From: Castor canadensis
Lineage: Eukaryota > Chordata > Mammalia > Rodentia > Castoridae
Direction of reading: 5' to 3'
DNA length: 64,000 nucleotides
NCBI RefSeq assembly: GCF_047511655.1
Contig: NC_133401.1
Coordinates: 14,044,001 to 14,108,000, forward strand
Shown here: positions 40-61,991 of the stretch, piece by piece
Layout: every line of letters begins with the position of its first letter
Numbering within the stretch: the first letter of the stretch is position 1
The notes under the pieces: generated by a model
Seen by the model: the letters and a program-made list of their open reading frames with translations, nothing else
Databases searched by the model: none
Told to the model about the DNA's origin: nothing
Made by a program: the position numbers and the translations under genes

Positions 40-399
40 TCTCACTTTTAACCTTCTGGAACCTGCCCACCACTGCCCAACTCACCATTGAATCAGTGCC
101 AGCCAATGCTGTAGAAGGCAGTGACGTTCTTCTACGTGTCCACAACTTGCCAGAGAACCTTCAAGGTTATTACTGGTACAAAGGGGAAAGTGCCATGGAC
201 AACCAGCAAATTGCACTGTATGTGATAGGCACTCAAGAAACTAGGCGAGGGGATGTGTACAGCGGTAGAGAGACGATATACCCCAATGGATCCCTGCTGT
301 TCCAGAATGTAGCTCAGAAGGACACAGGATTCTACACCCTGCAAACGTTAACTGTTGAACTTCATGAAGAATGTGCATCTGTGCAGCTCTTCATTTTCA
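40..399 (+). CDS. CEACAM: Unit A N-domain (IgV-like) exon
   Basis: The acceptor is a pyrimidine run ending in TAG at 37-39 and the donor is GTGAGT from 400. The exon is 360 bp with phase 1 at both ends, as in known CEACAM N exons. It encodes the end of the signal peptide (LLTFWNLPTTAQ) and the N domain, with the WYKGE motif, the SGRETIYPNGS stretch and the KDTGFYTL motif (Arg and Asp of the usual salt bridge). It is identical to unit B's exon at 15193-15552. In the family this domain carries homophilic and pathogen-adhesin binding. Confidence 0.93.
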
Positions 400-1841
400 G
401 TGAGTGATTTTCTCTGACCTCTGGGTGCTGGGTGAGGTTAATTCCACTTTATATACACAGGTCTGCCTGGCCTGCACGGTGCCTACCTCCTTTCTGCACT
501 GTGTCCTCACATTGAGGTTTGAGTAGACACACCAACTGGACAAAACTTGAAAAGATGTCCATCCTTCATGTGACACACCGAGAGATATCAGATGGATTAA
601 CTCAGCGCCCCAGGGCCTCTCCCCTGTGAAAGACCATAGGAGTCTAAAAGGGACCCTAAGGCCTCCCTGGATTTTCACAGACAGCTCTGCAAGGGAAGCC
701 CCTGCCCCAGGCCCACATCTCAGGCTGCTATCCTCAGGTCATCCTGGCTTCCTTCTGGCCAGGGTTGTCATTTGGCCTCCTCTTTGGGCTGACAAGGAGC
801 GGTGATTGCCTGCCTGTCTGAATCTCATAGCTCTGGAAACTGGTCACCAGCCAGTGCACTGCCATGAGGGCCACATCTAGGCAAGGGCATCTGGTCCTCT
901 GTCCTGCAACTCAGTGTGACAGCACAAGTGGACAGGTGCCCCAGGCCATTAGCCAAAAGCCCTGATGACTTGAGAGCCTCCACAAGAAGGCCAGTGTCCC
1001 CAAGGGTAGGAACTGAGGACCAAAGATTCTCCTGGGAGGTCCTTGTTCCCCAGGGGCTGTGCCTAGGTTTTTCTCTCTTGGAGGCAAATAATAACAGATG
1101 TGTTGAAGTGGGTAGTTCTTCTAGGCCAAGTATTGTCCATACTTTGAGTGTAGACTGTGACTATGGGTATTTTAAGGTTAATTCACAGACAACTTACTAG
1201 CCAGAAACCATTTACCATGTGTCCTATGGAAGAGAAATGGAGGCACAGAAAATACAATTGCTGAATGATGGTCTCACAGAGCAGTGGTGGCAGGTCAGAG
1301 GCCCAGGGTGTCTGTGTCCAGCTACAGCCGCCCCCTCCTCCCTGGAGGCTGCATTAGGGGTCTGGTCCAGAGAGGAGCAGGTGGCTCAGGTGCTTTCATC
1401 TCAGAGTTTAGAGGCTTTGAGGAAGCGGAGAGTCTGGGCTGGGGAGGGAGAGCAATGGACAATTAGTCAGTTTTTACTCTGGACTAAATCAGCTGCTGCC
1501 TCAACAGAATGTCAAGGCCTTTCTGCTCAGGCAGCCGAGACACTCCCTCCCTGGGTGGACATGATGGTGTTTCCTGGCACTCTGGCTGTCACTTCCCCTG
1601 GAGGGCAGAGAAGAGAACTTTGTTGTCTCACTCCCCACTGTGCCCTGCAACCAGGGGAAGCCCAAGGTGTAGTCAACTCTCCACAGTCTTGTGATGCAGG
1701 AGGGAAGGAATGAACAGTGAGTGAATGGATGGTTGGTCTAGAACCTCTTCAGAGGTTAAACCTGCACGCAGAGTCATAGAACTTTTTCTTTTTTTTTCCT
1801 TTATTATTGGGCTGGGAAAATCTTAGCTTCTTTTTTTATTG

Positions 1842-1931
1842 TTGTTTTTTTTTTTTTGGTGAGATGGGAATTGAACAAGGGCTTCAGGCTTGAAAGCAGG
1901 CACTCTACCACTTGAGCCACACTTCTAGTCC
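1842..1931 (-). repeat. tRNA-derived SINE in intron 2 (unit A)
   Basis: Minus-strand copy with T-rich end, box B complement (GAATTGAAC) and box A complement (CTCTACCACTTGAGCCAC). Paralogous copies lie in unit B (16995-17084) and unit C (about 29911-30002), so the insertion predates those duplications. Confidence 0.75.
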
Positions 1932-3978
1932 CCCTAGAAGTTTCTATCCACACCTCCCTTTATAAATCCTGGAGGCTGAGACCCTGGTTCCATCCTCTGA
2001 GCATATGCTCCTAAGGTCACCCCTGGAGCCACATCACAGGGTGACCCTGGAGCTGTTGGCTGGGAAGGGTCTCAGGGTTTTACTAGTTCAACTCAGAGAC
2101 AGCCAGGAGCTCTAGGTCTGTGGGGTCTTTGAAGTCACTGTAACCCAAACTGATCCCTGTCCTTGGTGTTTCTGCCTCCCTGTGTTCCTCTCCACCCTCA
2201 CAATGCTCCCACTTCATTCCCAGCGGGACTGCCCCTGCTGCCCGGCTTGCCCTTCCTTACCTTCCCCGACTAATGCTGACCTTCCTGTTCCCTTCCTGCT
2301 AAACCCTGGGGCCAGGCCACCCTCCTGGGCACAGGAATCAGTTCAAGTAGCTGTCCCCTGTGCCTATCACAAGACAATGTCCCCCACTCTGCAGTAGCCT
2401 CCACTGGGTCCCTGACTAGCACTGCTTTCTTCCATGACGCTGATATGTGAAACAGCCCACAACCAAGACAAGCAACACCCCTGTCCACTCTCTGCACTGA
2501 CTCAACCAGGGGGTCAGAGAGAGGACAGGACTGCACGCCCTAAAGCCCCAGCCTCCTCCACCCCTCTCACTCTGTCCACCCTGGTTCCACCGTGGCACTC
2601 AGGATCCTCCAGTGGTCCTGGGAGCTTCCCCAAGGGGCAGCTGGCCAGACGGTGCCGTCTGATGGGCTCACTGCATATCTCACACCCACCTGTGTCCCCT
2701 AATGACACCATTGTCACAGGTGGGTCCTTTACAAGGTCCAGACGCTCCACCCACTGATCATTTCAATCAAACTCTGCCTCATTTGGAACAACTTGTAAAA
2801 CTGTAGATGTGATTCCTGTAGCTAAAAGAAATGGAAGAAAACATTTCACACACCTGTTTGGGGTCCTCCTCACTTTACTTGAATCTCCATAGCAACTGGG
2901 GACATAGATTTCTTCAAAATTACTCATGTGTTATATAACAATCGATGAGTTTGGTATGATTCCTCCTTTTATATAGTAGCATACCTCAGACTTCTCCCCT
3001 GACCCTTTGTCACCAGGAAGACTCCCATCACAATGTGACCTGCAGGACTTCAGAGCTCAGACTAAGACATTGCCATGCTCTACAGAAATAGTCCCTTCAA
3101 GAATTGGTTTTAGATCTGGATATTAACACAATTATTGCAATTTTCCCAGTGTCGCTAATTCCCATCTCAGATGTGTCAGACACGCATGGCCACAAGAGCC
3201 TGAAGTGCAGCAAGTTCATTCTCCCTGCCTTCTGCCAGTCTGCTCTTCTGCACTTGAAAACCTCCACAAGCTTTGCAGGAGAGACACAGGGTCCTTATCT
3301 GTCCTCTGCAGAGGGAGAAGGGACACTAAAGCCTAAGGACAAGAAGGTAGTTTGAGTCTGAGGCCTGACTATCACACTCACGCTTTTCCAGATCATTCTT
3401 TGGAATTATTTTTTTCAGGGTGCTTGACTCATGACAATCACCATCAAATAATTGAGCGAAATTGTTCAATTTTGTAGCCCCAACCTTCCCACAAAGCCAA
3501 ATGCTCCATGTCTGCTAAAACACTTGGTCCTCAGGTCAGGCCACATTGGCTTCTCAGAGTTTAATCACATTGGGAAGTCCATCGGGACCCTTCTCTAGGA
3601 CAGCCCTGAAAAAGGAGAGTCTCAGAGGACACAACCCTGGCTGAGCAGGGGAGGTCTGTGCAGATGAAAGGACTAGAACCACAAGGAGGCAGCGGGTCCG
3701 TGAGGACCAGGAATAATACCCGGGGGCTATGACTCCAGGTCCTGGGCCTGTTCATGGCCAAGGCCTCTGCTAAGTTCACATGTGAGAATCTGTTTTTCTC
3801 CACGTAAATTCACATGGTCCCATGTTCTCAGAGTGCTGAGCTCCTCAGGCATCTTCTGCCTGGTTCTTTAAGAATTAAGATTTGTTGGGAAGAGAGAGAG
3901 CGTGACTCTAAAGGAGAGAGGCCTCTGCAGGGATCACAGGTACCACACAGAACCATCTTCTCTCTGATATCTGCACAG

Positions 3979-4257
3979 CCGAGTTACCTAAACCCTTCAT
4001 CACAAGCACCAACTCCAGCCCCGTGGAGGGAAAGGACTCTGTAGCATTAATGTGTGAGCCTGAGACTCCAGACACAACCTACCTGTGGTGGATAAATGGT
4101 CACAGAGTTGCAGACAGTGACAGCCTGGAGCTGTCAAAGGACAACAGGACCCTCACTTTACTCAGAGTCACAAGGAATGACACTGGAAACTATGAGTGTG
4201 GAACCAGGAACCCAGTGAGCGCCAACCGAAGTGACCCTGTCACCCTGAATGTCCTCT
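3979..4257 (+). CDS. CEACAM: Unit A A-type IgC2 exon
   Basis: 279 bp, acceptor CAG at 3976-3978, donor GTGAGT at 4258. It encodes ELPKPFITSTNSS, the first Ig cysteine in LMCEPE, TTYLWWING, TRNDTGNYEC with the second cysteine, and SANRSDPVTLNV, all typical CEACAM A-domain motifs. It appears identical to the unit B exon. Confidence 0.93.
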
Positions 4258-4554
4258 GTGAGTAACTCTATTCCTCCATGGCCCTGGCTGCCAGCCCCAA
4301 TACACAGGGTCAGAGTCAAGTCCTCAGTCCCTCTCAGGTCCCAGTACACAGTCCCTCATCCTTGGGCACCAGGCAGGCCATGATAACTTGTCCCAGCCCC
4401 ATCCAGGCAGCCCACATTTGTCTAAGGACGGGAAAAGGGGCTGACCTGTCTGGAGAGGCTGGGGTCACCTCCAGTGATGGAGGAACAGAACATGGCTCAG
4501 ACTTAGCATCAGTGAACAGAGGGGGCAGCTGGGATGTTTTAGTGTGTGCTGTGC

Positions 4555-4621
4555 TGAGGATGGAACCCAGGGCGCACTGCCTGTTATGCAAGTGCTCTGT
4601 CACTGAGCTACATTACTAGCT
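4555..4621 (-). repeat. ID-like SINE (minus) after the A exon, unit A
   Basis: Reads GAGGATGGAACCCAGGGC then AGTGCTCTGTCACTGAGCTA, the complement of an ID/tRNA-type SINE. Paralogous copies lie at about 19708-19775, 32645-32712, 39260-39330 and 49678-49745. Confidence 0.7.
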
Positions 4622-4636
4622 TTGGTTGGGATTTAA

Positions 4637-4838
4637 TTTTTTGTTGGCAGTACTGGGGCCTGAACTGAGGGCCTACACCTAGAGACACTCCACCAGCCCT
4701 ATTTTTGATGTGTTTTGTTAACATAGGGGCTCACGAACTCTTTGCCCAAACTGGCTTCGAACCGTGATCCTCCTGATCTCTGCCTCCTGAGAGCTAGGAT
4801 TACAGGTGTGAGCCAGAGGCACCGGCATGGTTCAGACT
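4637..4838 (-). repeat. Composite SINE (minus) after the A exon, unit A
   Basis: The 7SL-like half (CTAGGATTACAGGTGTGAGCC) and the tRNA-like half (GGGCCTACACCTAGAG) are in reverse order, so the element lies on the minus strand. Copies in units B (about 19796-19949, internally deleted), C (about 32725-32910) and E (about 49755-49955). Unit D lacks it. Confidence 0.7.
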
Positions 4839-4946
4839 TTCTAAAAACAAGTTTGTGACATCACTCAGGGCTATACTTTTGGCTTTCTAAAAAGCAGGAT
4901 ATTCCCTGTGTTGACATTTCATGTGACTTCTTTCCATTTCTTCCAG

Positions 4947-5201
4947 ATGGCCCAGACACCCCCATCACATCCCCTCCAGAATCACATTTCCGTCCAGGGG
5001 ACAGCCTCAGGCTATTTTGCCACACAGCCTCTAACCCAGCTGCACAGTATTCCTGGCTTTTCAATGGGAGGCCCCAGTCATCCACACAAGAGCTCTTTAT
5101 CCCCAATGTCACCGCAAATAATGCCGGATCCTACACCTGCCTCGTCCACAACTCTGCCACTGGTGTCAGTAGGACCACAGTCAAGAATATTCTAGTTCTT
5201 G
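4947..5201 (+). CDS. CEACAM: Unit A B-type IgC2 exon with lost splice donor
   Basis: 255 bp, acceptor TTCCAG ending at 4946. It encodes GPDTPITSPPES, the first Ig cysteine in RLFC, AAQYSWLFNG, STQELFIPNVT and SYTCLVHNS. Where unit B has ..CTTG|GTAAGT, this copy reads ..CTTG|TCAAGT, so the GT is gone. A GT one base upstream (5201-5202) would shift the frame. Skipping the whole exon would stay in frame (phase 1-1). Confidence 0.9.
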
Positions 5202-5269
5202 TCAAGTGGATCCCTGGAACATGAGTGCCAAGCTCTGGGGTGGTGCCTGGATTTTCTGGAGGAAAATAT

Positions 5270-5880
5270 TAGGTATTATTAGGCCATTAATACCTGTTAA
5301 AGTCGTGATGACTGGATTGGGCTCTCCTCGCTCCCTAACAAACTGTTTTACCAGAAGCTCTTGCAATCACTATTCCATGTTATCCTTCCCTGACCCAGAG
5401 ATGGGGCTCATAATCCCCTTCCCCAACTTACAGAGCAGCATGTACAAGAGATGGGAGCCTAATCTTTTACAGAGCATCCCCAAAAACATGTGCTGAAAAT
5501 AGAATTCCCAACACAACAGGGATCAAAGATGGCACCCAATGGAAGGTGAATACGTGCTGAAGGCTCTGCCCTCATGAATGGAGCCCTGCTGCTGACCCAG
5601 GAGTGGGCCAGTTAGCAAGGATATAGATTCATCATGAAGGGATGAGGTTCTCCCCTTCCCTCCTCTCTCTCACACAAGCTCTCCTCGTGGGAAGTCTTCC
5701 AAATCTGTGATCTGGGAAGAGGCCCTCAGGAGATGCAGCCCCTTGATCTCGGACTTTCCAACCTTCACAACTGTGAGCAAAAAAAAAAAAAAAAAGCAAC
5801 AAAATACAAAGAAATTGTTCTTAATAAATTATCCGGTCACATGACATTCTGTTATAGCAGCACAGAATGAACTCAGACCA
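5270..5880 (+). repeat. MaLR-like LTR remnant in unit A
   Basis: The end (ATTCTGTTATAGCAGCACAG, then GAACTCAGACC) and the GGAGTGGGCCAGTTAGCAAGG stretch recall MLT1/MST-type LTRs. Nearly the same sequence is in unit E (51232-51842) but is absent from unit B at the equivalent place. Confidence 0.5.
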
Positions 5881-6179
5881 TCACAAAAGTTCTAGTGGAG
5901 AAGACATGTGAACACATGAGGAAAAATTCCCCCTGATGAGGATGTGGGACCCATGGACTGAGAAGAGATTTCCCATATGAATCCTACAGAGTCATCTAAG
6001 GGACCATTCTGTGGTCACTCTGGGTGATCTGGGGTCAGATGGGGTGCATTCCTCCTTATGGATCATCACCTACACAAAGACACCCAACCTTGCAAAGAGT
6101 ACGGCCATCTAAGGGTCACCTTACACATTTCACTGTGGAACCTAGAACTGGAGGAATGTCTGAGAAAGGAGCCAGGCCC

Positions 6180-6320
6180 TGGCCCCACTCAATCCCTGAG
6201 CCTCAGTTTCCTCATCTGTGAAATTATAACACAAAGCCTGGCTCTTCAAGTTGTTGTGGGGACATTTATTAGACCAATGGCATTAAAGTCCTTATCACAG
6301 GGCCTGCAGGGTCACGGCTC
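6180..6320 (+). repeat. MIR-like element in unit A intron
   Basis: CCTCAGTTTCCTCATCTGTG and the following GTTGTTGTGGGGACATTTATTAG-type order resemble MIR. Paralogues lie at about 21055-21200 and 52130-52275. Confidence 0.55.
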
Positions 6321-6923
6321 AGGCAGTGCTATCGCTGGTAACACTTCCATGAACTTGGTGTTAGCTGGTGAGTCAGGCAGACCTGGGTGAGCATGTTACT
6401 GTATCACTGACCAGCGGGTGACCTGGGTTGTTTATTTACACACATGGTGTCAGATCCTAATCTGCACAATGGAGTGACATCTGCTGCCTCTCACAGGCCG
6501 GAAGGATGAGATGAGATGTAGGAAAAGTGACTTGCACTGGACTGACCCATGGAGGGCCCCAGAGATCAGGGAGTCACCACTATTTTCATCATCGTCACTC
6601 CTAATCCTGGTGCTGACCAGTTAGGACCTGTCCTCCAGGACTGTCATAGGAGGGAGAATAGGAAGCAGAGGAAGAGACACTAACAGGAACGTGACAGAGT
6701 GTGGTACAGGTTACAGGAGGTGGAATGTGAGAGTTAGAGCAAGTTCAGGTTTTGACGTAGGAAATGAAGCAATGAGGACAGTCGCACAGTTGGAGGACAT
6801 GGAGATGACAACACAAAAGACTCTCGAACCTTAAGTGACACAAATTTTCTGGTCCCTTTCCTGCAAAGTTCCTTGTGGCTCTTCTTCTGGACACAGTTCT
6901 TCCCTTTTCTCTTCTCTCTTCAG

Positions 6924-7044
6924 CAGCAGGAAAAGCTTCAGGCCTCTCTGTGGGGGCCATCGCAGCCATTGTGACCGGAGTTGTGGTCGGTGTGATTCTG
7001 GTGGCCACAGTGACCTGTTTCCTGCTCCTCAGAAGGACTGGCAG
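6924..7044 (+). CDS. CEACAM: Unit A transmembrane exon
   Basis: 121 bp (118 bp if the second AG of a tandem CAGCAG acceptor is used). It encodes [13 protein letters not shown], a hydrophobic helix, then [10 protein letters not shown], closely matching CEACAM transmembrane exons. The donor is GTATTG. It continues the frame of the Ig exons. Confidence 0.88.
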
Positions 7045-7978
7045 GTATTGAGGGCTCTCCCCACCTGTCCCCACCTGTGGCTGACCAGGGTGGAGACTTC
7101 GGGTTCTGGACCTGGCTCCTGTCCCCCAACTTCCCATGGAAGCTTTCCCCTGTTCCACCAGCTCCTCCTCACCAAGCGCTGACCCCAGGCTGCTCCTCCA
7201 CTGCTTCCTCCTCCATAAATGGCACAATCAGGAACCCAGCCCGGGCTCTGTCCTAGTCCCTCACACAGCAAACCTGCAGCACTGCCTGGGAGTGCTTGCT
7301 CAGCACACACTCTTCCCTGTGTATTTCTCCCACCACCCAGGGAGGTGTCACAACCCAGGATCTGAGGGGTGGTCATGGTCGAGGTGATGCAGGGAGAGTG
7401 GAGGAGCCTGGACAGGCTGGGTGGGTTCAGCTCCCCCCACGGCTGCTGTGCTGCCCAGGACTCCTGATAGGTGAGATGGGACTGCCAGGGTGTAGGCACA
7501 GCAGCAGGTCCTGAATGTCCTGTGTACTGCCAAGGCAGATGGAGGGAGAAGACAAAGCCACTGTTACATTGCAGCCCACCTGGCCTGAAGGTCAGGGAGA
7601 ATCCTGATGCACGTGGCTCCCCCAGGGTCCTGTCCACACAGCTGGCCCTCTCTCCCTCCCAGGCCTGGACCCTTCCACTAAGTCAACCCCTCAGGTTGCC
7701 TACTTTTTGGGCCCTCAGTCCATTTCCTGGGTCCCTGGGTCAGTGTGTACTGGGTCTGCATCTGCCTGAGGGACTTTCTGCTGAGGCCCAGGACAGAAAT
7801 TGATTCTGAAGGTTTTGCTCAGTTGCCCTCTCCAGGGTCCCTTGCTCTTACCACAGAAGTGATGGAAAGAAGAGGTGTCCACAGCACACTTAAAATGGGG
7901 TCCCCTCCTCGTCCCCTGTCTGCACCCAAGTCTGTGACCTCTCCCTGTCCCCTCATTAACAAACCTGAGCTTTTCTAG

Positions 7979-9254
7979 GGCCCCCATCATCAGAGAGCGC
8001 TGGCCCCCTGCATCCACTCCGGGTAAGTGACCCTTGAACCCATGTGTGACTGGAGCCCCAAAACTATCCACCCTGACAGTCACCCTTTGGGGGTCTGACC
8101 CTTCCCTGGGGTTTCACAGAGATCTCAGAAAACACTAAGGAGAATGGACCCCAAACCCCAGGTCAACACAGACCCATGGATCCAGTCATGGTTACCTCCT
8201 CAGCCTCAGTGGTCAGTTGGCACTAAAACCTTGGAGAGTGTCTCCCTGAAAATGCTGTGAGATCAGAGGACCTCCCACAAGTTTCCTATAGGAAGGGCCC
8301 ATACCTCCTCACACCCTCCTGCTAACTCCTGACTGTGCCCTTAGGTCAAGGACCCTTGGACAGCTCCACTTCCATGGTAAGCCTGTCCCTCCCCCTTCAC
8401 AAAGGGGTCCCCAGCTGTGCAGGCTATGGTGGGTACAATTTCCCCCACTTCAGTACAGGCCCATTTTCCCACGCATCAGGACAGTGTTAGCCCAGCCATG
8501 GCAAGTACTGAGCCTTTCTACAGGGTCAGGATCACCCTCGCCCAGTCTTGACCCCATCCCGGGTGTCCCTGACCATCAGAAAGAACCACTGGAGACCAGC
8601 AGGTGCAGCGTGGGCTCTGGGAGCATCAAACACTGGGACAAGAAGTGTGCTGAGTGGGCACAGCTAGGACTTGAGGAGGAGTCATCTGGGTTGGAGGATG
8701 GTGTGTAGGAGCTAGAATTGTTCACTCCAGAGGTGAAATGGGGAAGTAGAAACAGGGAAGTAAGCTCTGCCTGTCAGAGACCAGAACCTTCGATCTTTGC
8801 CTGGACCTTGCTCACTGCAGCCTCAGCTTGGGTGGTTCTCCTTCCCTTTCCCCTGCCATCTGTTCCCTCTTCCCCCTTTAGGCCCCTCTTCCTGGTTCAA
8901 ATACAGCTGTTCCCATCTACCAGGTGAGTGTGGGAGACCAATGTTCTCATCCCAGTGGCTAAAGGAGACCCAGGATCTCCCACACCCCATACCTGGCTGA
9001 ACTTTGAGATTCAGGTGTCTGCAGTAAAAAGGGGATGAGGTGGTGGTGAGCAAAGGATGAAGGCCTGGGGACTGGACTCCTGAGTCAGGCCAGTGCAGAT
9101 AGCAATCTGGGTGGGACTGGGCTTTGGAGACCTGGACTCTCATGTGAGGGGGACACTTGACTCAGAGGCCTCTTTATTCATTTTACTGGACTTACTAAAA
9201 CGTGACATGGACATTTATGATCAGATCAACCACAAAGGACATGTGACTTCTTAG
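7979..9254 (+). CDS. CEACAM: Unit A cytoplasmic exons with ITAM residues
   Basis: Four small exons: 7979-8022, 8345-8376, 8882-8923 and 9189-9254. Together they would encode a tail ending VPIYQ then DLLKRDMDIYDQI and stop at TAG 9252-9254, an ITAM-like YxxL-x7-YxxI. The tyrosine codons are at 8918-8920 and 9216-9218. The final exon has lost its acceptor (ACTG instead of ACAG at 9185-9188). Confidence 0.85.
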
Positions 9255-14289: not shown

Positions 14290-14353
14290 ATGGAGACCCC
14301 ATCAGCCCCTCCCAGCAGAATGGGCGACACCTGGCAGGGGCTCCTGCTCTCAG
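14290..14353 (+). CDS. CEACAM: Unit B exon 1 (leader)
   Basis: 64 coding bp: ATG in a good Kozak context (GACACCATGG), encoding METPSAPPSRMG then DTWQGLLLS, and ending in phase 1 before GTAAGG. Length, phase and the SAPP..W..LLL pattern match CEACAM leader exons. Confidence 0.93.
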
Positions 14354-17300
14354 GTAAGGGGATGATTCCTTGGGAGTGAGCAGGAGGAGGGGAGCACAGA
14401 GACTGGATAGGGTCTCCTGTGAAGATAAGATCCTGAGAGAGGACACCGGGCTTCTCTTTGGGGCCTGAAGGAAGAAGACACAAAGAGTGACAATGGCTCA
14501 GCAAAAGGAAGGAGGAAAATCCATTCCAAGTTGATCATCAGGCCCACAATATTTTGAAAATTAATGTGAAAAACTAGGCGAGGGTGTCTCACCAAAAAAA
14601 ATAAGTGCTACATTAAACATGTCCTAGTTTCCAACTGCCAAATTGACACACCCCTGTTCCTGAGGCCCTGGGAACGCAGTTCCTCACCCACAGGAACCTG
14701 AGCCTGCTCCAGGCACTGGGTTACAACAAAGATCAGAGCAGGCCTGGTTCCCACACAGCTCTCCATCTAGTGGCAGGAGAACCATGCAGCAAGGACATCC
14801 AGAAGGTGAGGTCAGGGAGTGACAAGAGCCATAGGGACAGAGCAGGGAGAGGTGAGAAAGTGAAGGTCAAGGGTCTCCAAAAGAGGGGGTTAGGGAAGGC
14901 ATCTCCTAGGGTGCATGAGTGTGAGCAGGGATGTGAGGGCATTGAAGGGTGAGCCATGCAGACACCTGGGAAGGGTGCTTCACACAGAGGAAGTGACAAG
15001 GTTAGGGGCATTGAAGGAATGGAGGTCACGCTGCTGACCAGTACCCTAGGAGACACTCATGCTCCCCCCACACACACAGCAAGCACACGTACTCTGCCAG
15101 ACTGGGGGAGAGACACCTGATCAGGGCCCAATGCAGAGGTCCATCCAATATAGAGGTCGCGATATTGATGGATTTCTCTTCCTCCCTCGTAGTCTCACTT
15201 TTAACCTTCTGGAACCTGCCCACCACTGCCCAACTCACCATTGAATCAGTGCCAGCCAATGCTGTAGAAGGCAGTGACGTTCTTCTACGTGTCCACAACT
15301 TGCCAGAGAACCTTCAAGGTTATTACTGGTACAAAGGGGAAAGTGCCATGGACAACCAGCAAATTGCACTGTATGTGATAGGCACTCAAGAAACTAGGCG
15401 AGGGGATGTGTACAGCGGTAGAGAGACGATATACCCCAATGGATCCCTGCTGTTCCAGAATGTAGCTCAGAAGGACACAGGATTCTACACCCTGCAAACG
15501 TTAACTGTTGAACTTCATGAAGAATGTGCATCTGTGCAGCTCTTCATTTTCAGTGAGTGATTTTCTCTGACCTCTGGGTGCTGGGTGAGGTTAATTCCAC
15601 TTTATATACACAGGTCTGCCTGGCCTGCACGGTGCCTACCTCCTTTCTGCACTGTGTCCTCACATTGAGGTTTGAGTAGACACACCAACTGGACAAAACT
15701 TGAAAAGATGTCCATCCTTCATGTGACACACCGAGAGATATCAGATGGATTAACTCAGCGCCCCAGGGCCTCTCCCCTGTGAAAGACCATAGGAGTCTAA
15801 AAGGGACCCTAAGGCCTCCCTGGATTTTCACAGACAGCTCTGCAAGGGAAGCCCCTGCCCCAGGCCCACATCTCAGGCTGCTATCCTCAGGTCATCCTGG
15901 CTTCCTTCTGGCCAGGGTTGTCATTTGGCCTCCTCTTTGGGCTGACAAGGAGCGGTGATTGCCTGCCTGTCTGAATCTCATAGCTCTGGAAACTGGTCAC
16001 CAGCCAGTGCACTGCCATGAGGGCCACATCTAGGCAAGGGCATCTGGTCCTCTGTCCTGCAACTCAGTGTGACAGCACAAGTGGACAGGTGCCCCAGGCC
16101 ATTAGCCAAAAGCCCTGATGACTTGAGAGCCTCCACAAGAAGGCCAGTGTCCCCAAGGGTAGGAACTGAGGACCAAAGATTCTCCTGGGAGGTCCTTGTT
16201 CCCCAGGGGCTGTGCCTAGGTTTTTCTCTCTTGGAGGCAAATAATAACAGATGTGTTGAAGTGGGTAGTTCTTCTAGGCCAAGTATTGTCCATACTTTGA
16301 GTGTAGACTGTGACTATGGGTATTTTAAGGTTAATTCACAGACAACTTACTAGCCAGAAACCATTTACCATGTGTCCTATGGAAGAGAAATGGAGGCACA
16401 GAAAATACAATTGCTGAATGATGGTCTCACAGAGCAGTGGTGGCAGGTCAGAGGCCCAGGGTGTCTGTGTCCAGCTACAGCCGCCCCCTCCTCCCTGGAG
16501 GCTGCATTAGGGGTCTGGTCCAGAGAGGAGCAGGTGGCTCAGGTGCTTTCATCTCAGAGTTTAGAGGCTTTGAGGAAGCGGAGAGTCTGGGCTGGGGAGG
16601 GAGAGCAATGGACAATTAGTCAGTTTTTACTCTGGACTAAATCAGCTGCTGCCTCAACAGAATGTCAAGGCCTTTCTGCTCAGGCAGCCGAGACACTCCC
16701 TCCCTGGGTGGACATGATGGTGTTTCCTGGCACTCTGGCTGTCACTTCCCCTGGAGGGCAGAGAAGAGAACTTTGTTGTCTCACTCCCCACTGTGCCCTG
16801 CAACCAGGGGAAGCCCAAGGTGTAGTCAACTCTCCACAGTCTTGTGATGCAGGAGGGAAGGAATGAACAGTGAGTGAATGGATGGTTGGTCTAGAACCTC
16901 TTCAGAGGTTAAACCTGCACGCAGAGTCATAGAACTTTTTCTTTTTTTTTCCTTTATTATTGGGCTGGGAAAATCTTAGCTTCTTTTTTTATTGTTGTTT
17001 TTTTTTTTTTGGTGAGATGGGAATTGAACAAGGGCTTCAGGCTTGAAAGCAGGCACTCTACCACTTGAGCCACACTTCTAGTCCCCCTAGAAGTTTCTAT
17101 CCACACCTCCCTTTATAAATCCTGGAGGCTGAGACCCTGGTTCCATCCTCTGAGCATATGCTCCTAAGGTCACCCCTGGAGCCACATCACAGGGTGACCC
17201 TGGAGCTGTTGGCTGGGAAGGGTCTCAGGGTTTTACTAGTTCAACTCAGAGACAGCCAGGAGCTCTAGGTCTGTGGGGTCTTTGAAGTCACTGTAACCCA

Positions 17301-20300
17301 AACTGATCCCTGTCCTTGGTGTTTCTGCCTCCCTGTGTTCCTCTCCACCCTCACAATGCTCCCACTTCATTCCCAGCGGGACTGCCCCTGCTGCCCGGCT
17401 TGCCCTTCCTTACCTTCCCCGACTAATGCTGACCTTCCTGTTCCCTTCCTGCTAAACCCTGGGGCCAGGCCACCCTCCTGGGCACAGGAATCAGTTCAAG
17501 TAGCTGTCCCCTGTGCCTATCACAAGACAATGTCCCCCACTCTGCAGTAGCCTCCACTGGGTCCCTGACTAGCACTGCTTTCTTCCATGACGCTGATATG
17601 TGAAACAGCCCACAACCAAGACAAGCAACATCCCTGTCCACTCTCTGCACTGACTCAACCAGGGGGTCAGAGAGAGGACAGGACTGCACGCCCTAAAGCC
17701 CCAGCCTCCTCCACCCCTCTCACTCTGTCCACCCTGGTTCCACTGTGGCACTCAGGATCCTCCAGTGGTCCTGGGAGCTTCCCCAAGGGGCAGCTGGCCA
17801 GACGGTGCCGTCTGATGGGCTCACTGCATATCTCACACCCACCTGTGTCCCCTAATGACACCATTGTCACAGGTGGGTCCTTTACAAGGTCCAGACGCTC
17901 CACCCACTGATCATTTCAATCAAACTCTGCCTCATTTGGAACAACTTGTAAAACTGTAGATGTGATTCCTGTAGCTAAAAGAAATGGAAGAAAACATTTC
18001 ACACACCTGTTTGGGGTCCTCCTCACTTTACTTGAATCTCCATAGCAACTGGGGACATAGATTTCTTCAAAATTACTCATGTGTTATATAACAATCGATG
18101 AGTTTGGTATGATTCCTCCTTTTATATAGTAGCATACCTCAGACTTCTCCCCTGACCCTTTGTCACCAGGAAGACTCCCATCACAATGTGACCTGCAGGA
18201 CTTCAGAGCTCAGACTAAGACATTGCCATGCTCTACAGAAATAGTCCCTTCAAGAATTGGTTTTAGATCTGGATATTAACACAATTATTGCAATTTTCCC
18301 AGTGTCGCTAATTCCCATCTCAGATGTGTCAGACACGCATGGCCACAAGAGCCTGAAGTGCAGCAAGTTCATTCTCCCTGCCTTCTGCCAGTCTGCTCTT
18401 CTGCACTTGAAAACCTCCACAAGCTTTGCAGGAGAGACACAGGGTCCTTATCTGTCCTCTGCAGAGGGAGAAGGGACACTAAAGCCTAAGGACAAGAAGG
18501 TAGTTTGAGTCTGAGGCCTGACTATCACACTCACGCTTTTCCAGATCATTCTTTGGAATTATTTTTTTCAGGGTGCTTGACTCATGACAATCACCATCAA
18601 ATAATTGAGCGAAATTGTTCAATTTTGTAGCCCCAACCTTCCCACAAAGCCAAATGCTCCATGTCTGCTAAAACACTTGGTCCTCAGGTCAGGCCACATT
18701 GGCTTCTCAGAGTTTAATCACATTGGGAAGTCCATCGGGACCCTTCTCTAGGACAGCCCTGAAAAAGGAGTCTCAGAGGTCACAACCCTGGCTGAGCAGG
18801 GGAGGTCTGTGCAGATGAAAGGACTAGAACCACAGGGAGGCAGCGGGTCCGTGAGGACCAGGAATAATACCCGGGGGCTATGACTCCAGGTCCTGGGCCT
18901 GTCCATGGCCAAGGCCTCTGCTAAGTTCACATGTGAGAATCTCTGTTTTTCTCCACGTAAATTCACATGGTCCCATGTTCTCAGAGTGCTGAGCTCCTCA
19001 GGCATCTTCTGCCTGGTTCTTTAAGAATTAAGATTTGTTGGGAAGAGAGAGAGCGTGACTCTAAAGGAGAGAGGCCTCTGCAGGGATCACAGGTACCACA
19101 CAGAACCATCTTCTCTCTGATATCTGCACAGCCGAGTTACCTAAACCCTTCATCACAAGCACCAACTCCAGCCCCGTGGAGGGAAAGGACTCTGTAGCAT
19201 TAATGTGTGAGCCTGAGACTCCAGACACAACCTACCTGTGGTGGATAAATGGTCACAGAGTTGCAGACAGTGACAGCCTGGAGCTGTCAAAGGACAACAG
19301 GACCCTCACTTTACTCAGAGTCACAAGGAATGACACTGGAAACTATGAGTGTGGAACCAGGAACCCAGTGAGCGCCAACCGAAGTGACCCTGTCACCCTG
19401 AATGTCCTCTGTGAGTAACTCTATTCCTCCATGGCCCTGGCTGCCAGCCCCAATACACAGGGTCAGAGACAACGCCACTCAGTCCCTCTCAGGTCCCAGT
19501 ACACAGTTCCTCATCCCTGGGCACCACACAGGCCATGATATCCTGTCCCAGGCCCGTCCAGGCAGCCCACATTTGTCTAAGGCTGGAGAAGGGGTTGTAC
19601 CTGTCTGGAGAGGCTGTGGTCACCTCCTTTGATGGAGGAACAGGACATGTCTCAGACTCAGCATCAGTGAACAGAGGGGGCAGCTGGGATGTTTTAGTGT
19701 GTGCTGTGCTGAGGATGGAACCCAGGGCGCACTGCCTGTTATGCAAGTGCTCTGTCACTGAGCTACATTACGAGCCCTGGTTGGGATTTAATTTTTTGTT
19801 GGCAGTACTGGGCTTTGAACTCAGGGCCTACACTCGATCCACTCCACCAGCCCTATTTTTGATGTGTTTTGTTGAGATAGGTGCTCACGAACTATTTGCC
19901 TGGGCTGCCTCCTGAGAGCTAGGATTACAGGTGTGAGCCAGAGGCACAGGCATGGTTCAGACTTTCTAAAAACAAGTTTGTGACATCACTCAGGGCTATA
20001 CTTTTGGCTTTCTAAAAAGCAGGATATTCCCTGTGCTGACATTTCACGTGACTTCTTTCCATTTCTTCCAGATGGCCCAGACACCCCCATCACATCCCCT
20101 CCAGAATCACATTTCCGTCCAGGGGACAACCTCAGGCTATTTTGCCACACAGCCTCTAACCCAGCTGCACAGTATTCCTGGCTTTTCAATGGGAGGCCCC
20201 AGTCATCCACACAAGAGCTCTTTATCCCCAATGTCACCGCAAATAATGCCGGATCCTACACCTGCCTCGTCCACAACTCTGCCACTGGTGTCAGTAGGAC

Positions 20301-23300
20301 CACAGTCAAGAATATTCTAGTCCTTGGTAAGTGGATCCCTGGAACATGAGCGCCAAGCTCTGGGGTGGTGCCTGGATTTTCTGGAAGAACAGGAAGAAGT
20401 TCACCCCAGCCTGTGTGCATAGACCCTGGTAAATCCCAGTCCTCCCCGAACTTCAAGCTCCATCCCTGAGTCTCTCTATCATCTTGCTCCTCTCATTTCT
20501 CATGGCTGAACTGGGGTTTCAGCCTGAAATAGTGAGGAGGGGGATCTTCCAGTCCTACAGAGGCTCTAGCTCCAGGATTTCACTACCCTTAGAGGAGAGT
20601 TGAAGGGTCTATAAGGTAATTAGGTTCCATCTGTCACTAACCCATTCCTTCCATCAACTCTCAGTTTCCTTTTACATTCTTCTTCATCTACAACAAATAT
20701 CCAATCTAAGAACATGCTCAGACCTCTTTTCCCCAAATGAGAAAAGGAAATCCCATCAGGTGGGGTGAGCTGCACAAAGCTCTGCCACCTGGTGATGGGC
20801 TGTGCTCTGAATCCATGTGAGGTGGGCTGGGTTGGGTTGGGGTGGAAAAGAACCATAAGAGGCCTGTGGTGAGTCTGAGTAAATTGATCTGGGGTCAGAG
20901 GGAGGTGCATTCCTCCTTACAGATCATCACCTACACAAAGACACCCAACCTTGCAAAGAGTACAGCAATCTAGGGGTCACCTTACACAGCTCACTGTGGA
21001 ACCTAGAACTGGAGGAATGTCTGAGAAAGGAGCCAGGCCCTGGCCCCACTCAACCCCTGAGCCTCAGTTTCCTCATCTGTGAAATTATAACACAAAGCCT
21101 GGCTCTTCAAGTTGTTGTGGGGACATTTATTAGACCAATGGCATTAAAGTCCTCATCACAGGGCCTGCAGGGTCAAGACTCAGGCAATGTGATCGCTGGT
21201 AACACTTCCATGAACTTGGTGTTAGCTGGTGAGTCAGGCAGACCTGGGTGAGCATGTTACTGTATCACTGACCAGTGGGTGACCTGGGTTGTTTATTTAC
21301 ACACATGGTGTCAGATCCTAATCTGCACAATGGAGTGACATCTGCTGCCTCTCACAGGCCAGAAGGATGAGATGAGATGTAGGGAAAGTGACTTCCACTG
21401 GACTGGCCCATAGAGGGCCCCTGACAGCAGAGAGTCACCACCATCTTCATCATTATCACTCCTAAGCCTGTTGCTGACAAGTTAGGACCTGTCCTCTAGA
21501 ACTGTCATAGGAGGGAGAATAAGAAGCAGAGGAAGAGGCACTAACAGGAACGTGACAGAGTGTGGTACACGTTGCAGGAGGGGGAATGTGAGAGTTAGAG
21601 CAAGTTCAGGTTTCAATAGGAAATGAAGCAATGCCGACATCCGCCCAATTGGAGGACATGGAGATGACAATACAATAAAACACTCCCAGACTGTTAGTGA
21701 CACAAATTTTCTGGTTCCTTTCCTGCAAGGTTCCTTGTGGCTCTTCTGGACACAGTTCTTCCCTTTTCTCTTCTCTCTTCAGCAGCAGGAAAGGCTTCAG
21801 GTCTGTCTGTGGGAGTCATGGCAGCCATTGTGACCGGAGTTGTGCTCGGTGTGGTTCTGGTGGTTGCAGTGACCTGTTTCCTGTTCCTCAGAAGGACTGG
21901 CAGGTACTGAGGCCTCTCCCTACTTGACCCCACCTGTGGCTGACCAGGGTGGAGACTTCGGGTTCTGGACCTGGCTCCTGTCCCCCAACCTCCCAGGGAA
22001 GCTTTCTCCTGTTCCAACAGCTCCTCCTCACCAAGCGCTGACCCCAGGCTGCTCCTCAACTCTTCCTCCTCCGTAAATGGCACAATCAGGAACCCAGCCC
22101 GGGCTCTGTCCTGATCCCTCACACAGCAAACCTGCAGCACTGCCTGGGAGTGCTTGCTCAGCACACACTCCTCCCTGTGTATTTTACCCACCACCCAGGG
22201 AGGTGTCACAACCCAGGATCTGAGGAGCAGTCATGGTTGAGGTAATGCAGGGAGAGTGGAGGAGCCTGGACAGGCTTTGTGGGTTCAGCTCCCCCAACGG
22301 CTGCTGTGCTGCCCAGGACTCCTGATAGGTGAGATGGGACTGCCAGGGTGTAGGCACAGCAGCAAGTCCTGAATGTCCTGTGTACTGCCAAGGCAGATGG
22401 AGGGAGAAGACAAAGCCACTGTTACATTGCAGCCCACCTGGCCTGAAGGTCAGGGAGAATCCTGATGCACGTGGCTCCCCCAGGGTCCTGTCCACACAGC
22501 TGCCCCTCTCTCCCTCCCAGGCCTGGACCCTTCCACTAAGTCAACCCCTCAGGTTGCCTACTTTCCTGGGCCCTCAGTCCCTTTCCTGGGTCTCTGGGTC
22601 AGTGTGTACTGGGTCTGCATCTGTGTAAGGGACTTTCTGGTCAGGCTCAGGACAGAAATGGATTCTGAAGGTTTTGCTCAGTTGTCCTCTCCTGGGTCCC
22701 TTGCTCTTACCACAGAAGTGATGGAAAGAAGAGGTGTCCACAGCACACTTAAAATGGGGTCCCTTCTGGTCCCCTGTCTACTCCCAAGCCTGTGACCTCT
22801 CCCTGACCCCTCATTAACAAACCTGAGCTTTTCTAGGGCCAACCATTTACATGACTTCAGAGAGCACTGGCTCCCAGCGTCCACGCCGGGTAAGTGACCT
22901 TTGACCCCACGTGTGACTGGAGCTCCAAAACTATCCACCCTGACAGTCACCTTTTGGGGATCTGAACCTTCCCTGGGGCTTCACAGAGGTCTCAAAAAAC
23001 ACTAGGCACAGTGGACCCTAAACTCCAGATCAGCATAGACACATGGGATCTAGTCATGGTTACCTCCTCAGCCTCAGTTGGTCACTGGGCACTAAAACCT
23101 TGGAGGGTGTTTCCCAAAAAATGTTGTGGGATCAGAGGACCTCCCACAAATTCTCCTAGAGAAAGAGCCCATACCTCCTCACACTCTCCTGCTAACTCCT
23201 GACTGTGCCCTTAGGTCAAGGACCCTTGGACAAATCCACTTCTCTGGTAAGCCTGTCCCCTCCCCCTTCACAAAGGCGTTGCCAGCTGTGCAGGCTAAGG

Positions 23301-24126
23301 GTGGGTTCAATTTTCCCCACTTCAATACAGGCCCATTTCCCCATATATCAGGACAGTGTTAGCCCAGCCATGGCAAGTACTGAGCCTTTCTACAGAGTCA
23401 GGATCACCCTTGCCCAGTCTTGACCCCAACCTAGGTGTCTCTGACCATCAGAAAGAACCACTGGAGACCAGCAGGTGTAACGTGGGCTGTGGGAGCATCA
23501 AACACTGGGACAAGGGGTGTGCTGGGTGGGTACAGCTAGGACTTGAGGAGGAGTCATCTGGGTTGGAGGATGGTGTGTAGGAGCTAGAGTTGTTCACTCC
23601 TGAGGGGAAATGGGGAAGTAGAAACAGGGAAGTAAGCTCTGCCTGTCAGAGACCAGAACCTTCAATCATTGCCTGGACCTTGCTCACTGCAGCCTCAGCT
23701 TGGGTGGTTCTCCTTCCCTTTCCCCTGCCATCTGTTCTCTCTCCCCCCTTTAGGCCCCTCTTCCTGGTTCAAATACAGCTGTTCCCATCTACCAGGTGAG
23801 TGTGGGAGACCAATGTTCTGATCCCACTGGCCAAAGGTGACCCAGGACCTCCCACACCCCATAACTGGATGAACTTTGAGATTCAGGAGTCAGCAGTAAA
23901 AAGGGGATGAGGTGGTGGTGAGCAAAGGATGAAGGCCTGGGGACTGGACTCCTGAGTCAGGCCAGTGCAGATAGCAATCTGGGTGGGACAGGGCTTGGGA
24001 GACCTGGACTCTCATGTGAGGGGGACACTTGACTCAGAGGACTCTTTATTCTTTTTACAGGACTTGCTAAAACATGAAATGGAGATTTATGATCATATCA
24101 GCCACAAAGGACATATGACTTCTTAG
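14290..24126 (+). CDS. CEACAM: CEACAM unit B: intact CEACAM3-like receptor with ITAM tail
   Basis: Exons: 14290-14353 (64), 15193-15552 (360), 19132-19410 (279), 20072-20326 (255), 21783-21903 (121, or 118 by the second AG), 22837-22889 (53), 23215-23246 (32), 23754-23795 (42), 24061-24126 (66). The sum is 1272 nt, 423 residues plus stop, with all junctions GT-AG and in frame. Layout: signal peptide 1-34 (METPSAPPSRMG start), N domain 35-141, A-type Ig about 142-234, B-type Ig about 235-319, transmembrane helix about 329-355, tail 356-423. The tail has Y401-Q-D-L and Y412-D-H-I, spaced as an ITAM and split between the last two exons. In human CEACAM3 such a tail drives Src/Syk-dependent phagocytosis in granulocytes; that role here is inference. 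Several N-glycosylation sequons lie in the Ig domains. The 53- and 32-bp exons match the lengths I recall for CEACAM1 tail exons, so the tail type may be a derivative of that layout. Confidence 0.93.
15193..15552 (+). CDS. CEACAM: Unit B exon 2 (N domain)
   Basis: 360 bp, acceptor TAG at 15190-15192, donor GTGAGT at 15553. It completes the signal peptide and encodes the IgV-like N domain. The domain lacks the usual Ig disulfide, as in the family, but carries one cysteine near its end (codon 15525-15527, HEECAS), also present in unit A and absent from unit E. Confidence 0.94.
19132..19410 (+). CDS. CEACAM: Unit B exon 3 (A-type IgC2)
   Basis: 279 bp between CAG and GTGAGT. It carries the paired Ig cysteines (LMCEPE and NYECGT), the TYLWWING motif and sequons NSS, NRT, NDT and NRS. 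Confidence 0.94.
20072..20326 (+). CDS. CEACAM: Unit B exon 4 (B-type IgC2)
   Basis: 255 bp between TTCCAG and GTAAGT. It encodes DTPITSPPESHFRPG, RLFCHTASNP, YSWLFNG, QELFIPNVTANN and YTCLVHNS. Its donor is the intact form of the site that is lost in units A and E. Confidence 0.94.
21783..21903 (+). CDS. CEACAM: Unit B exon 5 (transmembrane)
   Basis: Encodes [11 protein letters not shown], then about 25 hydrophobic residues, then the stop-transfer LRRTGR. The acceptor is a tandem CAG CAG (NAGNAG), so a one-alanine length variant is expected. The donor is GTACTG. Confidence 0.9.
22837..24126 (+). CDS. CEACAM: Unit B exons 6-9 (cytoplasmic tail with ITAM)
   Basis: Exons 22837-22889, 23215-23246, 23754-23795 and 24061-24126. 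The 53-bp exon encodes ANHLHDFREHWLPASTP. The later exons encode APLPGSNTAVPIYQ and DLLKHEMEIYDHI, then SHKGHMTS and stop. Tyrosine codons are 23790-23792 and 24088-24090. The last two exons resemble the end of human CEACAM3 (PLP..TA..IY..LLKH...IY...HK). No ITIM is present. Confidence 0.88.
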
Positions 24127-24410
24127 TTTTCTCTGGAAACTTCTGCTTATTGATCAGGGACAGTCACCCAGAACCTCAAACTCAGTCTTGTTGGTCAGAG
24201 ATGGTCCCTGAGCCCCAAGGAGAGTGTGACTTGGGGAGGAAGGATTTATCCTGAGTTTTTTGGGACCCACACAGGCTGATCAAGGCTCTGGATGGGACAG
24301 ACCAAGGTCATCTGTGCTATATAAACAGGGGAGATTCTAGAGAGTGTGAATGGAGCCACAAGTGTGACCTGGAAAGCAGCTGAAATAAAGAAACCCTTTC
24401 CTTCACTGGT
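24127..24410 (+). other. Unit B 3' UTR with AATAAA at 24384-24389
   Basis: The sequence after the stop is shared with units A and E and contains AATAAA in a CAGCTGAAATAAAG context. Cleavage would be expected about 15-25 bp downstream. The hexamer is also intact in units D (40510-40515) and E (55437-55442). Confidence 0.7.
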
Positions 24411-32096: not shown

Positions 32097-32352
32097 CCGA
32101 GTTACCCAAACCCTTCGTCACAAGCACCAACTCCAGCCCCGTGGAGGGCAAGGAGCCTAAAGCTCAGAACACAACCTACCTGTGGTGGATAAACGGTCAC
32201 AGCCTTCCAGGCAGGGACAGGCTGGAGCTGTCCAAGGACAACAGGACCCTCACTTTACTCAGAGTCACAAGGAATGACACTGGAAACTATGAGTGTGGAA
32301 CCTGGAACCCAGTGAGCACCAACCAAAGTGACCCTGTCTCTGAATGTTCTCT
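32097..32352 (+). pseudogene. CEACAM: Unit C A-type Ig exon, internally deleted
   Basis: Splice sites CAG and GTGAGT are intact and TTYLWWING and NDTGNYEC motifs survive. The 21-bp deletion near 32150 and the 2-bp deletion near 32339 distinguish it from the other copies. Confidence 0.85.
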
Positions 32353-33026
32353 GTGAGTAACTCTATTCCTCCATGGCCCTGGCTGCCAGCCCCAATACAC
32401 AGGGCCAGAGACGAGGCCACTTAGTCCCTCTGAGGTCCAAGTCCCTCATCCCTGGGCACCAGACAAGCCATGATATCCTTCCCCAGGCCCATCCAGGCAG
32501 CCCACATTTGTCTAAGGACCGCAGAAGGGGATGTGCTTGTCTGGAGAGGCTGGGGTCACCTCCTGCGATGGAGGAACAGGACATGGTTCAGAGTCAGCAT
32601 CAGTGAACAGAGGGGGCAGCTGGGATGTTTTAGTGTGTGCTGTGCTGAGGATGGAACCCAGGGCGCACTGCCTGTTATGCAAGTGCTCTGTCACTGAGCT
32701 ACATTACTAGCCCTGGTTGGTTCAGGCAGTACTGGGGCCTGAACTGAGGGCCTACACCTAGAGACACTCCACCAGCCCTATTTTGTGATGGGTTTTGTTA
32801 AGATAGGGTCTCACAAACTATTTGCCTGGGTTGTGTTCGATCTATCGTCCTGCTGATATCTGCCTTTTGAGAGCTAGGATTAGAGGTGTGTGCCAGAGCC
32901 ACTGGCATGGTTGGGACTTTCTAAAAACAAGTTTGTGACATCACTCAGGGCTATACTTGTGGCTTTCTGTAAAGCAGGATCTTCCCTCTGTTGACATTAC
33001 ATGTGGCTTCTTTCCATTTCTTCCAG

Positions 33027-33092
33027 ATGGCCCAGACAACCCCATCACATCTCCTCCAGACTCACATTTCCATCCAGAGGCAAACCTCAGCC
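33027..33092 (+). pseudogene. CEACAM: Unit C truncated B-type Ig exon
   Basis: The acceptor TTCCAG and the first roughly 66 bp are retained (DNPITSPPDSHFHPEANLS). The sequence then switches to that found after the 3' UTR in other units (ATTCACCTGAAATTCC). Confidence 0.8.
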
Positions 33093-33105
33093 TCACTTAC
33101 CAAAG

Positions 33106-36852: not shown

Positions 36853-36916
36853 ATGGAGACCCCCTCAGCCCCTCCCAGAAGAATGGGCATCCCCTGGCAA
36901 GGGCTCCTGGTCTCAG
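36853..36916 (+). CDS. CEACAM: Unit D leader exon (intact piece of a pseudogene)
   Basis: ATG in context TCATCATGG, 64 bp, phase 1 end. Signal-peptide pattern as in unit B, with the Trp and the LL core kept. Confidence 0.85.
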
Positions 36917-38687
36917 GTGAGGAGATGGTTCCCTAGGAGTGTGCAGAAGGAGGGGAGCACAGAGACTGGCTGGGGCCTACTGGGGAAAATAAGATCCTGA
37001 GACTGGACACAGACCTTCTGCTTTGAGCTTAAGTGGACAGGACACAAGGAGTGACACAAGCTCAGCTACAAAAAACCTCTAGTGACAGGAATTGGAAAGG
37101 AGGGGAGGAAAAGCTATTCCAAGTTGATCACCACTGGCCACTGTATTTTATAAATTAATGTGAATAAGTATGTAAGGTGTCTCACCAAACAAAAATATAA
37201 CTGGTAATTAAATATGTCTTACTTATAAACTTCAAATTGACAGATCCCTCTTCATGCAGTGCTCTGAAAACACTGGTTCATTCACCCACAGGTACATGGC
37301 GAGTATCAATCACTGGGCTCCAACAAGATCACACCAATCCTGTCCTCACAAAGTTCTTGTTCTAGTTCTCAATCCCCAGGGCCACTCCTCTGGAAAAGAT
37401 GATAGGGCTCAGAGATGGACCCTGAAGGCCTCCCAGGGATTTTCGAAAACAAGCTCTGTCCTAGGAAGCCTGTGCCCATGGTGCCTGTCTCAGGTTTATG
37501 ACTCCAGATGACCTGGGAGAACTTGGGGCCAGGGTTGGAATTTGGCTTCCTATTTGGGCTAATGAGGAGCGGTGAATTTTGTCTGTCTGTTCTCATTGCT
37601 CCCCAGCTCTGGTCTCCAGTCAGTGCACTGCCCCATGAGACACATCTGGGCATTTCCCTCTCCTGAGGCTCAGTACCTCAGACTTCTCCTCTGACTCCTT
37701 TATTCCCCTTGTAGGACTCATACATAATGTGACCTGCAGGACTTCAGAGCTCAGACTAAGACATTGCCGTTTATTGCTAAGAAATAGTCCCTTCAGGAAT
37801 TGGTCTTAGATCTGGATATTAACACAATTAATGCAATTTGCCCAGTGTCACAATTCCCATCTCAGATGTGTCAGACACGCATGGCCACAAGAGCCTGAAG
37901 TGCAGCAAGTTCATTCTCCCTGCCTTCTGCCAGTCTGCTCTTCTGCACTTGAAAACCTCCACAAGCTTTGCAGGAGAGACACAGGGTCCTTATCTGTCCT
38001 CTGCAGAGGGAGCAGGGACACTAAAGCCTAAGGACAAGAAGGTAGTTTGAGTCTGAGGCCTGACTGTCACACTCACGCTTTTCCAGATCATTCCTTGGAA
38101 TTATTTTTTTTAGGGTGCTTGACTCATGACAATCACCATCAAATACTTGAGCAAAATTGTTCAATTTTGCAGCCCCAACCTTTCCACAAAGCCAAATGCT
38201 CCATGTCTGCTAAAACACTTGGTCCTCAGGTCAGGCCACGTTGGCTTCTCAGAGTTTAATCACATTGGGAAGTCCATCGGGACCCTTCTCTAGTACAACC
38301 CTGAAAAAGGAGTCTCAGAGGTCACAACCCTGGCTGAGCAGGGGAGGTCTGTGCAGATGAAAGGACTAGAATCACAGGGAGGCAGCGGGTCCATGAGGAC
38401 CAGGAATAATACCCGGGGGCTATGACTCCAGGTCCTGGGCCTGTTCATGGCCAAGGCTTCTGCTAAGTTCACATGTGAGAATCTCTGTTTTTCTCCACGT
38501 AAGTTCAGGTGGCCCCATGTTCTCAGAGTGCTGAGCTCCTCAGGCACCTGCTGTGAGACTCACTCCTGCCTGGTTCATAAGAACTTAGGTTTGTTGGGAA
38601 GAGAGAGAGGGTGACTCTAAAGGAAAGAGGTCTCTGCAGGGATCACAGGTACCACATAGGGGCATTTTCCTTCTGATGTCTGCACAG

Positions 38688-46184: not shown

Positions 46185-46250
46185 ATGGAGACCCCATCAG
46201 CCCCTCCCAGGTTTGAAAGGGCATCCGCTAGCAGGAACTCATGCTCTCAG
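46185..46250 (+). pseudogene. CEACAM: Unit E leader exon, frameshifted
   Basis: Starts METPSAPPR like the others, then diverges (FERASASRN) because of a net 2-bp gain around 46210-46216. The Trp and leucine core are lost and the exon ends in the wrong phase before GTGAAT. Confidence 0.82.
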
Positions 46251-57087: not shown

Positions 57088-57089
57088 TT

Positions 57090-61980: not shown

Positions 61981-61991
61981 CCTGGTCAGTC

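Follow-up and report, generated by a model that had tools for sequence, protein, structure and literature searches.

Does the beaver (Castor canadensis) carry a working activating receptor of the CEACAM family, and if so, was its activating tail inherited or acquired anew? The question is raised by a locus at positions 14290-24126 of the window, that is, of the whole 64,000-nucleotide stretch of DNA analysed (NC_133401.1, positions 14,044,001 to 14,108,000 of the forward strand). A first-pass annotation had placed an intact CEACAM gene with an ITAM tail there, had held that mouse and rat are without an ITAM-type CEACAM, and had proposed that this lineage either kept or regained its activating receptor. 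Our reading of the DNA, to which we give a probability of about 0.85, is that the locus (gene e) is an intact beaver CEACAM gene with an ITAM-like tail, and the activating partner of the animal's CEACAM1. By analogy with studied receptors, its product is probably a cell-surface immune receptor, predicted to switch on white blood cells on binding microbes.

Gene e comprises nine exons, with GT-AG at all eight introns, and encodes a CEACAM of 422-423 residues in the order leader, N, A, B, transmembrane (TM) segment, and a tail with YQDL-x7-YDHI. All its features lie on the forward strand. The leader exon (14290-14353) opens with the start codon at 14290, in the context ACACCATGG, and ends at the donor GTAAGG. 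The remaining leader and the V-set N domain are encoded by exon 2 (15193-15552), the C2-type Ig domains A and B by exons 3 (19132-19410) and 4 (20072-20326), respectively, and the TM segment, in which no charged residue was seen by eye, by exon 5 (21786-21903). Four small cytoplasmic exons follow: C1 (exon 6, 22837-22889; 53 nt, whereas tail copies b, c, d, h, and the one at C16:14009575, five in all, have 44 nt), C2 (exon 7, 23215-23246; 32 nt), C3 (exon 8, 23754-23795), and C4 (exon 9, 24061-24126), which holds the stop codon. A polyadenylation signal, AATAAA (24384-24389), lies 258 bases 3' of the stop. The TM exon has a NAGNAG acceptor: use of 21786 gives 1269 nt, or 422 amino acids plus the stop, with the tail tyrosines at Y400 and Y411, and the alternative start at 21783 gives 423 amino acids, with Y401 and Y412. 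The nine GT-AG exons of the annotation are all present where it had put them, and its 423 codons with Y401-QDL and Y412-DHI are reproduced with the upstream acceptor. The 1269 nt of the nine exons are free of premature stops, frameshifts, and splice defects.

The product belongs to the CEACAM1-related CEA family, having a V-type N domain followed by C2-type A and B domains. A PDB entry for CEACAM1 is colinear with leader-N-A-B (E 4.4e-145), CEA is colinear with N-A-B (E 8.8e-249), and Pfam V-set and Ig_3 matches are above cut-off; a chance origin of the gene model was dismissed on these grounds. CEACAM1 has an additional exon, A2; in gene e none was found by tblastn at E <= 1e-3 in the interval from B to TM. 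The position is also that of the CEA locus, as LIPE, CEACAM1, and at least 14 N-exon places are clustered on C16. The LIPE assignment is based on an HSL_N (PF06350) match at C16:14.652-14.655 Mb; in human, LIPE adjoins CEACAM1.

The beaver CEACAM1 lies at C16:14746037-14729417 on the minus strand, about 0.66 Mb from gene e, and its last exon encodes VSYSSL (an ITIM) and TVYLEV (an ITSM). The N exon of gene e matches that of CEACAM1 at 328 of 360 nt and the mature N domain at 90 of 106 residues (85%), and in the aligned pieces from L to B, introns as well as exons, the two genes are 72-83% identical. The N domains share a run of 29 residues without differences, HNLPENLQGYYWYKGESAMDNQQIALYVI, which covers C-C' on the ligand-binding face; the differences are commoner near the domain end. 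An N domain so similar to that of a CEACAM1 with ITIM and ITSM makes the two genes an inhibitory/activating pair. Receptors that share related N domains but have opposite tails are termed paired (PMC2832619; PMC2110893), and such N domains were found in the species compared for this, namely human, dog, cattle, and opossum (PMC2832619). The N domain of gene e (15193-15552) also has one unpaired Cys, in HEECASVQL, where copy c has Glu and copy x and CEACAM1 have Leu; this residue could allow a disulfide-linked dimer. Because of this Cys and the differing end of the N domain, it is uncertain whether gene e shares ligands with CEACAM1. The dS values against CEACAM1 are 0.148 for the N exon and 0.222 and 0.225 for A and B; the contrast is too small for a conversion tract in the N exon to be claimed.

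The gene e protein ends in ...AVPIYQDLLKHEMEIYDHISHKGHMTS. Its YxxL is split as YQ|DL by a phase-0 intron, C3 ending in ...PIYQ, the first half of the motif, and C4 beginning with DLLKHEMEIYDHI..., the second half. The annotation was right to see here a two-tyrosine tail of the activating type: there are four small cytoplasmic exons, a split YxxL, and a second motif, YDHI, at a spacing within the 6-8 residues that the ITAM-like type allows for its Yxx(I/L/M). The tail is not a canonical ITAM, since the first Tyr is preceded by V-P-I at positions -3 to -1. We term the motif ITAM-like because it has no acidic residue at -1 to -3 of that Tyr, following the definitions that separate ITAM-like motifs from canonical ITAMs in PMC2832619. 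Among the best 120 of 1179 homologs, a motif search picked out 20 ITAM-like tails, and such a residue is absent from all of them. The main product could instead be short-tailed splice variants, formed by skipping of the small tail exons and not activating, as dog CEACAM24 and CEACAM25 make ITAM-less variants (PMC2110893). The tail splice sites of gene e are all canonical, however, and we regard this outcome as quite improbable. Gene model and motif together bear out the core of the annotation, in that this rodent has an intact gene, related to CEACAM1, whose tail is of the activating type.

Whether the tail was kept or regained can be judged from its relatives. A protein search with the tail alone (residues 322-422) gave 354 candidates, none at E <= 0.001; tail relatives were taken from the search with the full-length protein, as the best 120 of 1179 proteins. 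A maximum-likelihood tree of TM and tail was built with 36 rows, comprising 5 beaver, 18 ITAM-like mammalian, and 13 ITIM sequences. The 18 were 17 of the 20 motif matches and P0104, added by hand, whose second motif half is narrowly off the pattern; P0026 and P0120 (odd ends) were left out, as was P0080, whose printed tail belongs to P0074. The ITIM rows are set apart on a branch with 100/100 support. The five beaver rows group with the ITAM-like tails, not outside them, and are nearest to those of ground squirrels, with modest support (84/73). The annotation thereby withstands the check on the last exons that it had itself set. The placement supports a tail that was inherited, not acquired anew, and so favors "kept" over "regained". 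A regained tail would require that a CEACAM1-type ITIM duplicate gained a new ITAM-like tail in beavers. The closeness of the N domain to CEACAM1 (90/106 residues), which may reflect exchange with CEACAM1 at some time, lends this scenario what support it has. The tree opposes it through both the ITIM split and the squirrel affinity, the TM exon is identical to that of CEACAM1 at merely 77 of 118 nt, and a four-exon tail with a phase-0-split YxxL is a described CEACAM type (PMC2832619; PMC2110893). Regain is therefore hardly credible, and inheritance is the history we adopt.

Gene e is part of an array in which most copies have decayed. The DNA read amounts to 324 kb, made up of 164 kb including the window and 160 kb of a second, inverted subcluster. 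A genome-wide N-domain scan, whose counts are lower bounds, gave at least 23 rows; at least 14 of at least 15 CEACAM1-related N-exon places are within C16:14.01-14.80 Mb. Three distant relatives with N domains 30-36% identical are at C16:15.95-15.97 Mb. A lone broken CEACAM1-related N exon lies about 2.2 Mb off the cluster, at C16:11782979-11783291 on the minus strand, in two pieces, one of them with a TGA; the N exon at C16:14165309 is also in two pieces, and both places are outside the 324 kb read.

Exons C3 and C4 are found in nine copies, of which gene e alone is intact, a count that covers the 324 kb and the genome-wide N-domain scan and that tails without an N exon elsewhere would escape. 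The other eight have at least one lesion each, and most have several. In copies c and d the exons are open, but the B donor and the C4 acceptor are lost. Copy b has an N frameshift, copies i and k have several lesions each, and the first copy (C16:14009575) has TM stops and no N exon. Copy x, part of the inverted subcluster, no longer has the first of the two tail tyrosines, and its C2 exon contains a stop. Pseudogene copy h (46185-55180, forward strand) has 33 nt added in N, a stop in A, a broken B donor, and GC as its C3 donor, though its tail motif is still legible. Two pseudogene fragments, also on the forward strand, are without N and tail: f (32097-33093), with deletions in the A exon and a partial B, and g (36853-39682), with L, an A exon 11 nt short, and a B exon 17 nt short. 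Open N exons are present at six of the scan-listed places, and only that of gene e is joined to a spliceable two-tyrosine tail. Farther on in the window, 85-bp tandem repeats that resemble each other, at 56756-56916 and at 63143-63308, flank open frames that look retroviral by eye; the region of about 56700-63500 is perhaps a provirus with two terminal repeats.

With eight of the nine tail-bearing copies read broken, gene e could have been silenced not long ago, as part of an array in decay, and be intact in sequence yet hardly or not expressed, heading for the condition of the copies around it. The pairwise dN/dS of TM and tail against b, c, and h, at 0.67-0.91, is weak evidence of constraint and fits this alternative (C1 was left out because its length differs between copies). 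An ITAM-like tail is also absent from the beaver proteins among the matches listed, being found in none of the six Castor canadensis entries, nor in P0015, among the best 120 of 1179 matches. Silencing is nevertheless unlikely, as gene e has no lesion in 1269 nt and nine exons, against one or more in each other tail copy, and an activating CEACAM has been reported in rodents without Psg genes (PMC10440875). We thus retain the view that gene e is an intact activating member.

Copy d (40-9254, forward strand; leader outside the window, at C16:14043137-14043200) bears on how the array evolves. Its N and A exons are identical to those of gene e, and its B exon matches at 253 of 255 nt. A comparison of 6.5 kb, starting some 2 kb 5' of the leader and stopping some 0.5 kb short of A, shows only 2 mismatches; beyond this point d and e are diverged, save for the A exon and most of B. 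With copy c, d has no mismatch in the last 9.1 kb compared. The hybrid, e-type 5' and c-type 3', is seen when 40-9254 is set beside C16:14028061-14068126. Such a hybrid is what unequal crossing-over of c with e would be expected to produce. Divergence so close to zero points to a very recent origin, a copy-number variant, or an assembly error, and a false assembly duplication may be the source; such an error would leave gene e unaffected because the 3' halves of e and d differ. If d is read through past its B exon, the protein ends seven codons on, which, if real, would yield a soluble N-A-B protein. On this basis c and d might be alive as secreted twins of gene e, d having received its N and A by a very recent unequal crossover. 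We consider this doubtful; if it were true, beavers would have inhibitory (CEACAM1), activating (gene e), and soluble decoy forms of one ligand-binding face. The c/d/e array illustrates clearly how recombination can shuttle a domain that binds ligand between signalling tails that work and ones that are broken.

Both top-ranking protein matches to gene e are Castor canadensis entries, with long stretches identical to it letter for letter, which marks the genome as a beaver's. Several of the entries look like chimeric models, and some paralogs differ from such entries by a few residues. P0015, P0020, and P0046 have an N exon type, SLLTFWHLPTTAQLTTES..., that was unseen in the 324 kb and did not stand out in the N-domain scan, which hints that beavers differ in copy number. 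P0043, a metagenome protein on a JGI contig of 3,570 bases whose source names it CD209 antigen, shares its tail with the CEACAM1 described here and, over the stretch compared, its N domain as well; it is sequence of the host within microbial data and may derive from a spliced transcript.

How the product of gene e would act can be proposed from human receptors. On a leukocyte, probably a granulocyte, the CEACAM1-like N domain would bind CEACAM-binding bacteria or other CEACAMs. Clustering would lead Src-family kinases to phosphorylate both tail tyrosines, and SH2 proteins (Nck, Vav, PI3K, and Syk, as in human CEACAM3) would then bring about uptake and an oxidative burst, opposing or bypassing the ITIM signal of CEACAM1. 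In human CEACAM3, Src kinases do phosphorylate both tail tyrosines, the first of which binds Nck, Vav, and PI3K, and the CEACAM4 tail (YxxL and YxxI) likewise drives uptake (PMC7026191). The beaver tail would be expected to signal as these tails do. In CEACAM3, the closest studied receptor, Syk contributes to the burst, yet gonococci are taken up without it, which counts against the Syk step (PMC7026191).

The annotation implied that such a gene is a surprise in a rodent. This is not supported, since activating CEACAMs were reported in 2023 in all studied rodents without Psg genes, their loss being confined to three mouse-like families (PMC10440875). By its own account this was the first report of ITAM-bearing CEACAMs in most rodents; Castorimorpha (n = 2) were checked at the Psg locus and placed among the suborders without Psg (PMC10440875). 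One ITAM-like member each had been described in guinea pig and ground squirrel (PMC2832619). In light of the 2023 paper, which was the sole relevant one among the matches listed for CEACAM and beaver, the finding is ordinary. That mouse and rat are without an ITAM CEACAM is right for the CEACAM1-related type (PMC2832619; PMC10440875), but mouse CEACAM19 and CEACAM20 have presumed ITAMs (PMC2110893); the loss is therefore limited to CEACAM1-related members. The beaver gene fits the picture already in print, in which activating CEACAMs came down to rodents by inheritance and were lost in Psg-bearing families alone, and it adds caution to the use of mice as models of CEACAM-binding bacteria. The analysis provides a complete exon-by-exon model of such a gene in beaver, a species whose six entries among the matches listed lack the tail.

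Human CEACAM3 and CEACAM4 have one Ig domain each, the extracellular part of CEACAM3 being the N domain only, unlike the N-A-B of the beaver protein. That layout is longer than the N-only CEACAM3, as the annotation had noted, but it is not peculiar to beaver: P0084 (Myotis), P0094 (Ursus), P0103 (Microcebus), and P0114 (Pteropus) are also N-A-B-TM-ITAM-like proteins of 422-423 amino acids, with 99-100% query coverage. They are only 56-60% identical and are named CEACAM1, CEACAM6-like, or Ig-like domain-containing protein. The ground squirrel proteins P0069 (Ictidomys) and P0104 (Urocitellus), from rodents, have the nearest tails in the tree and the PIYQ motif start, but they are longer (514 and 488 amino acids) and 58-59% identical over 75% of the query. 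Like the beaver protein, human CEACAM3 and CEACAM4 have a CEACAM1-related N domain, a TM segment of their own, and YxxL followed by Yxx(I/M) (PMC2832619; PMC2110893; PMC7026191). CEACAM3 ends in YxxM, whereas the beaver tail ends in YxxI like CEACAM4, whose motif has been called a consensus ITAM (PMC7026191). Dog CEACAM23 and CEACAM28 also combine several Ig domains with an ITAM tail, in the different layouts N-A1-B-A2 and N-A-A (PMC2110893). CEACAM28 pairs with CEACAM1 (PMC2110893), as gene e does, but its N domain is 98% identical to that of CEACAM1, compared with 85% in the beaver.
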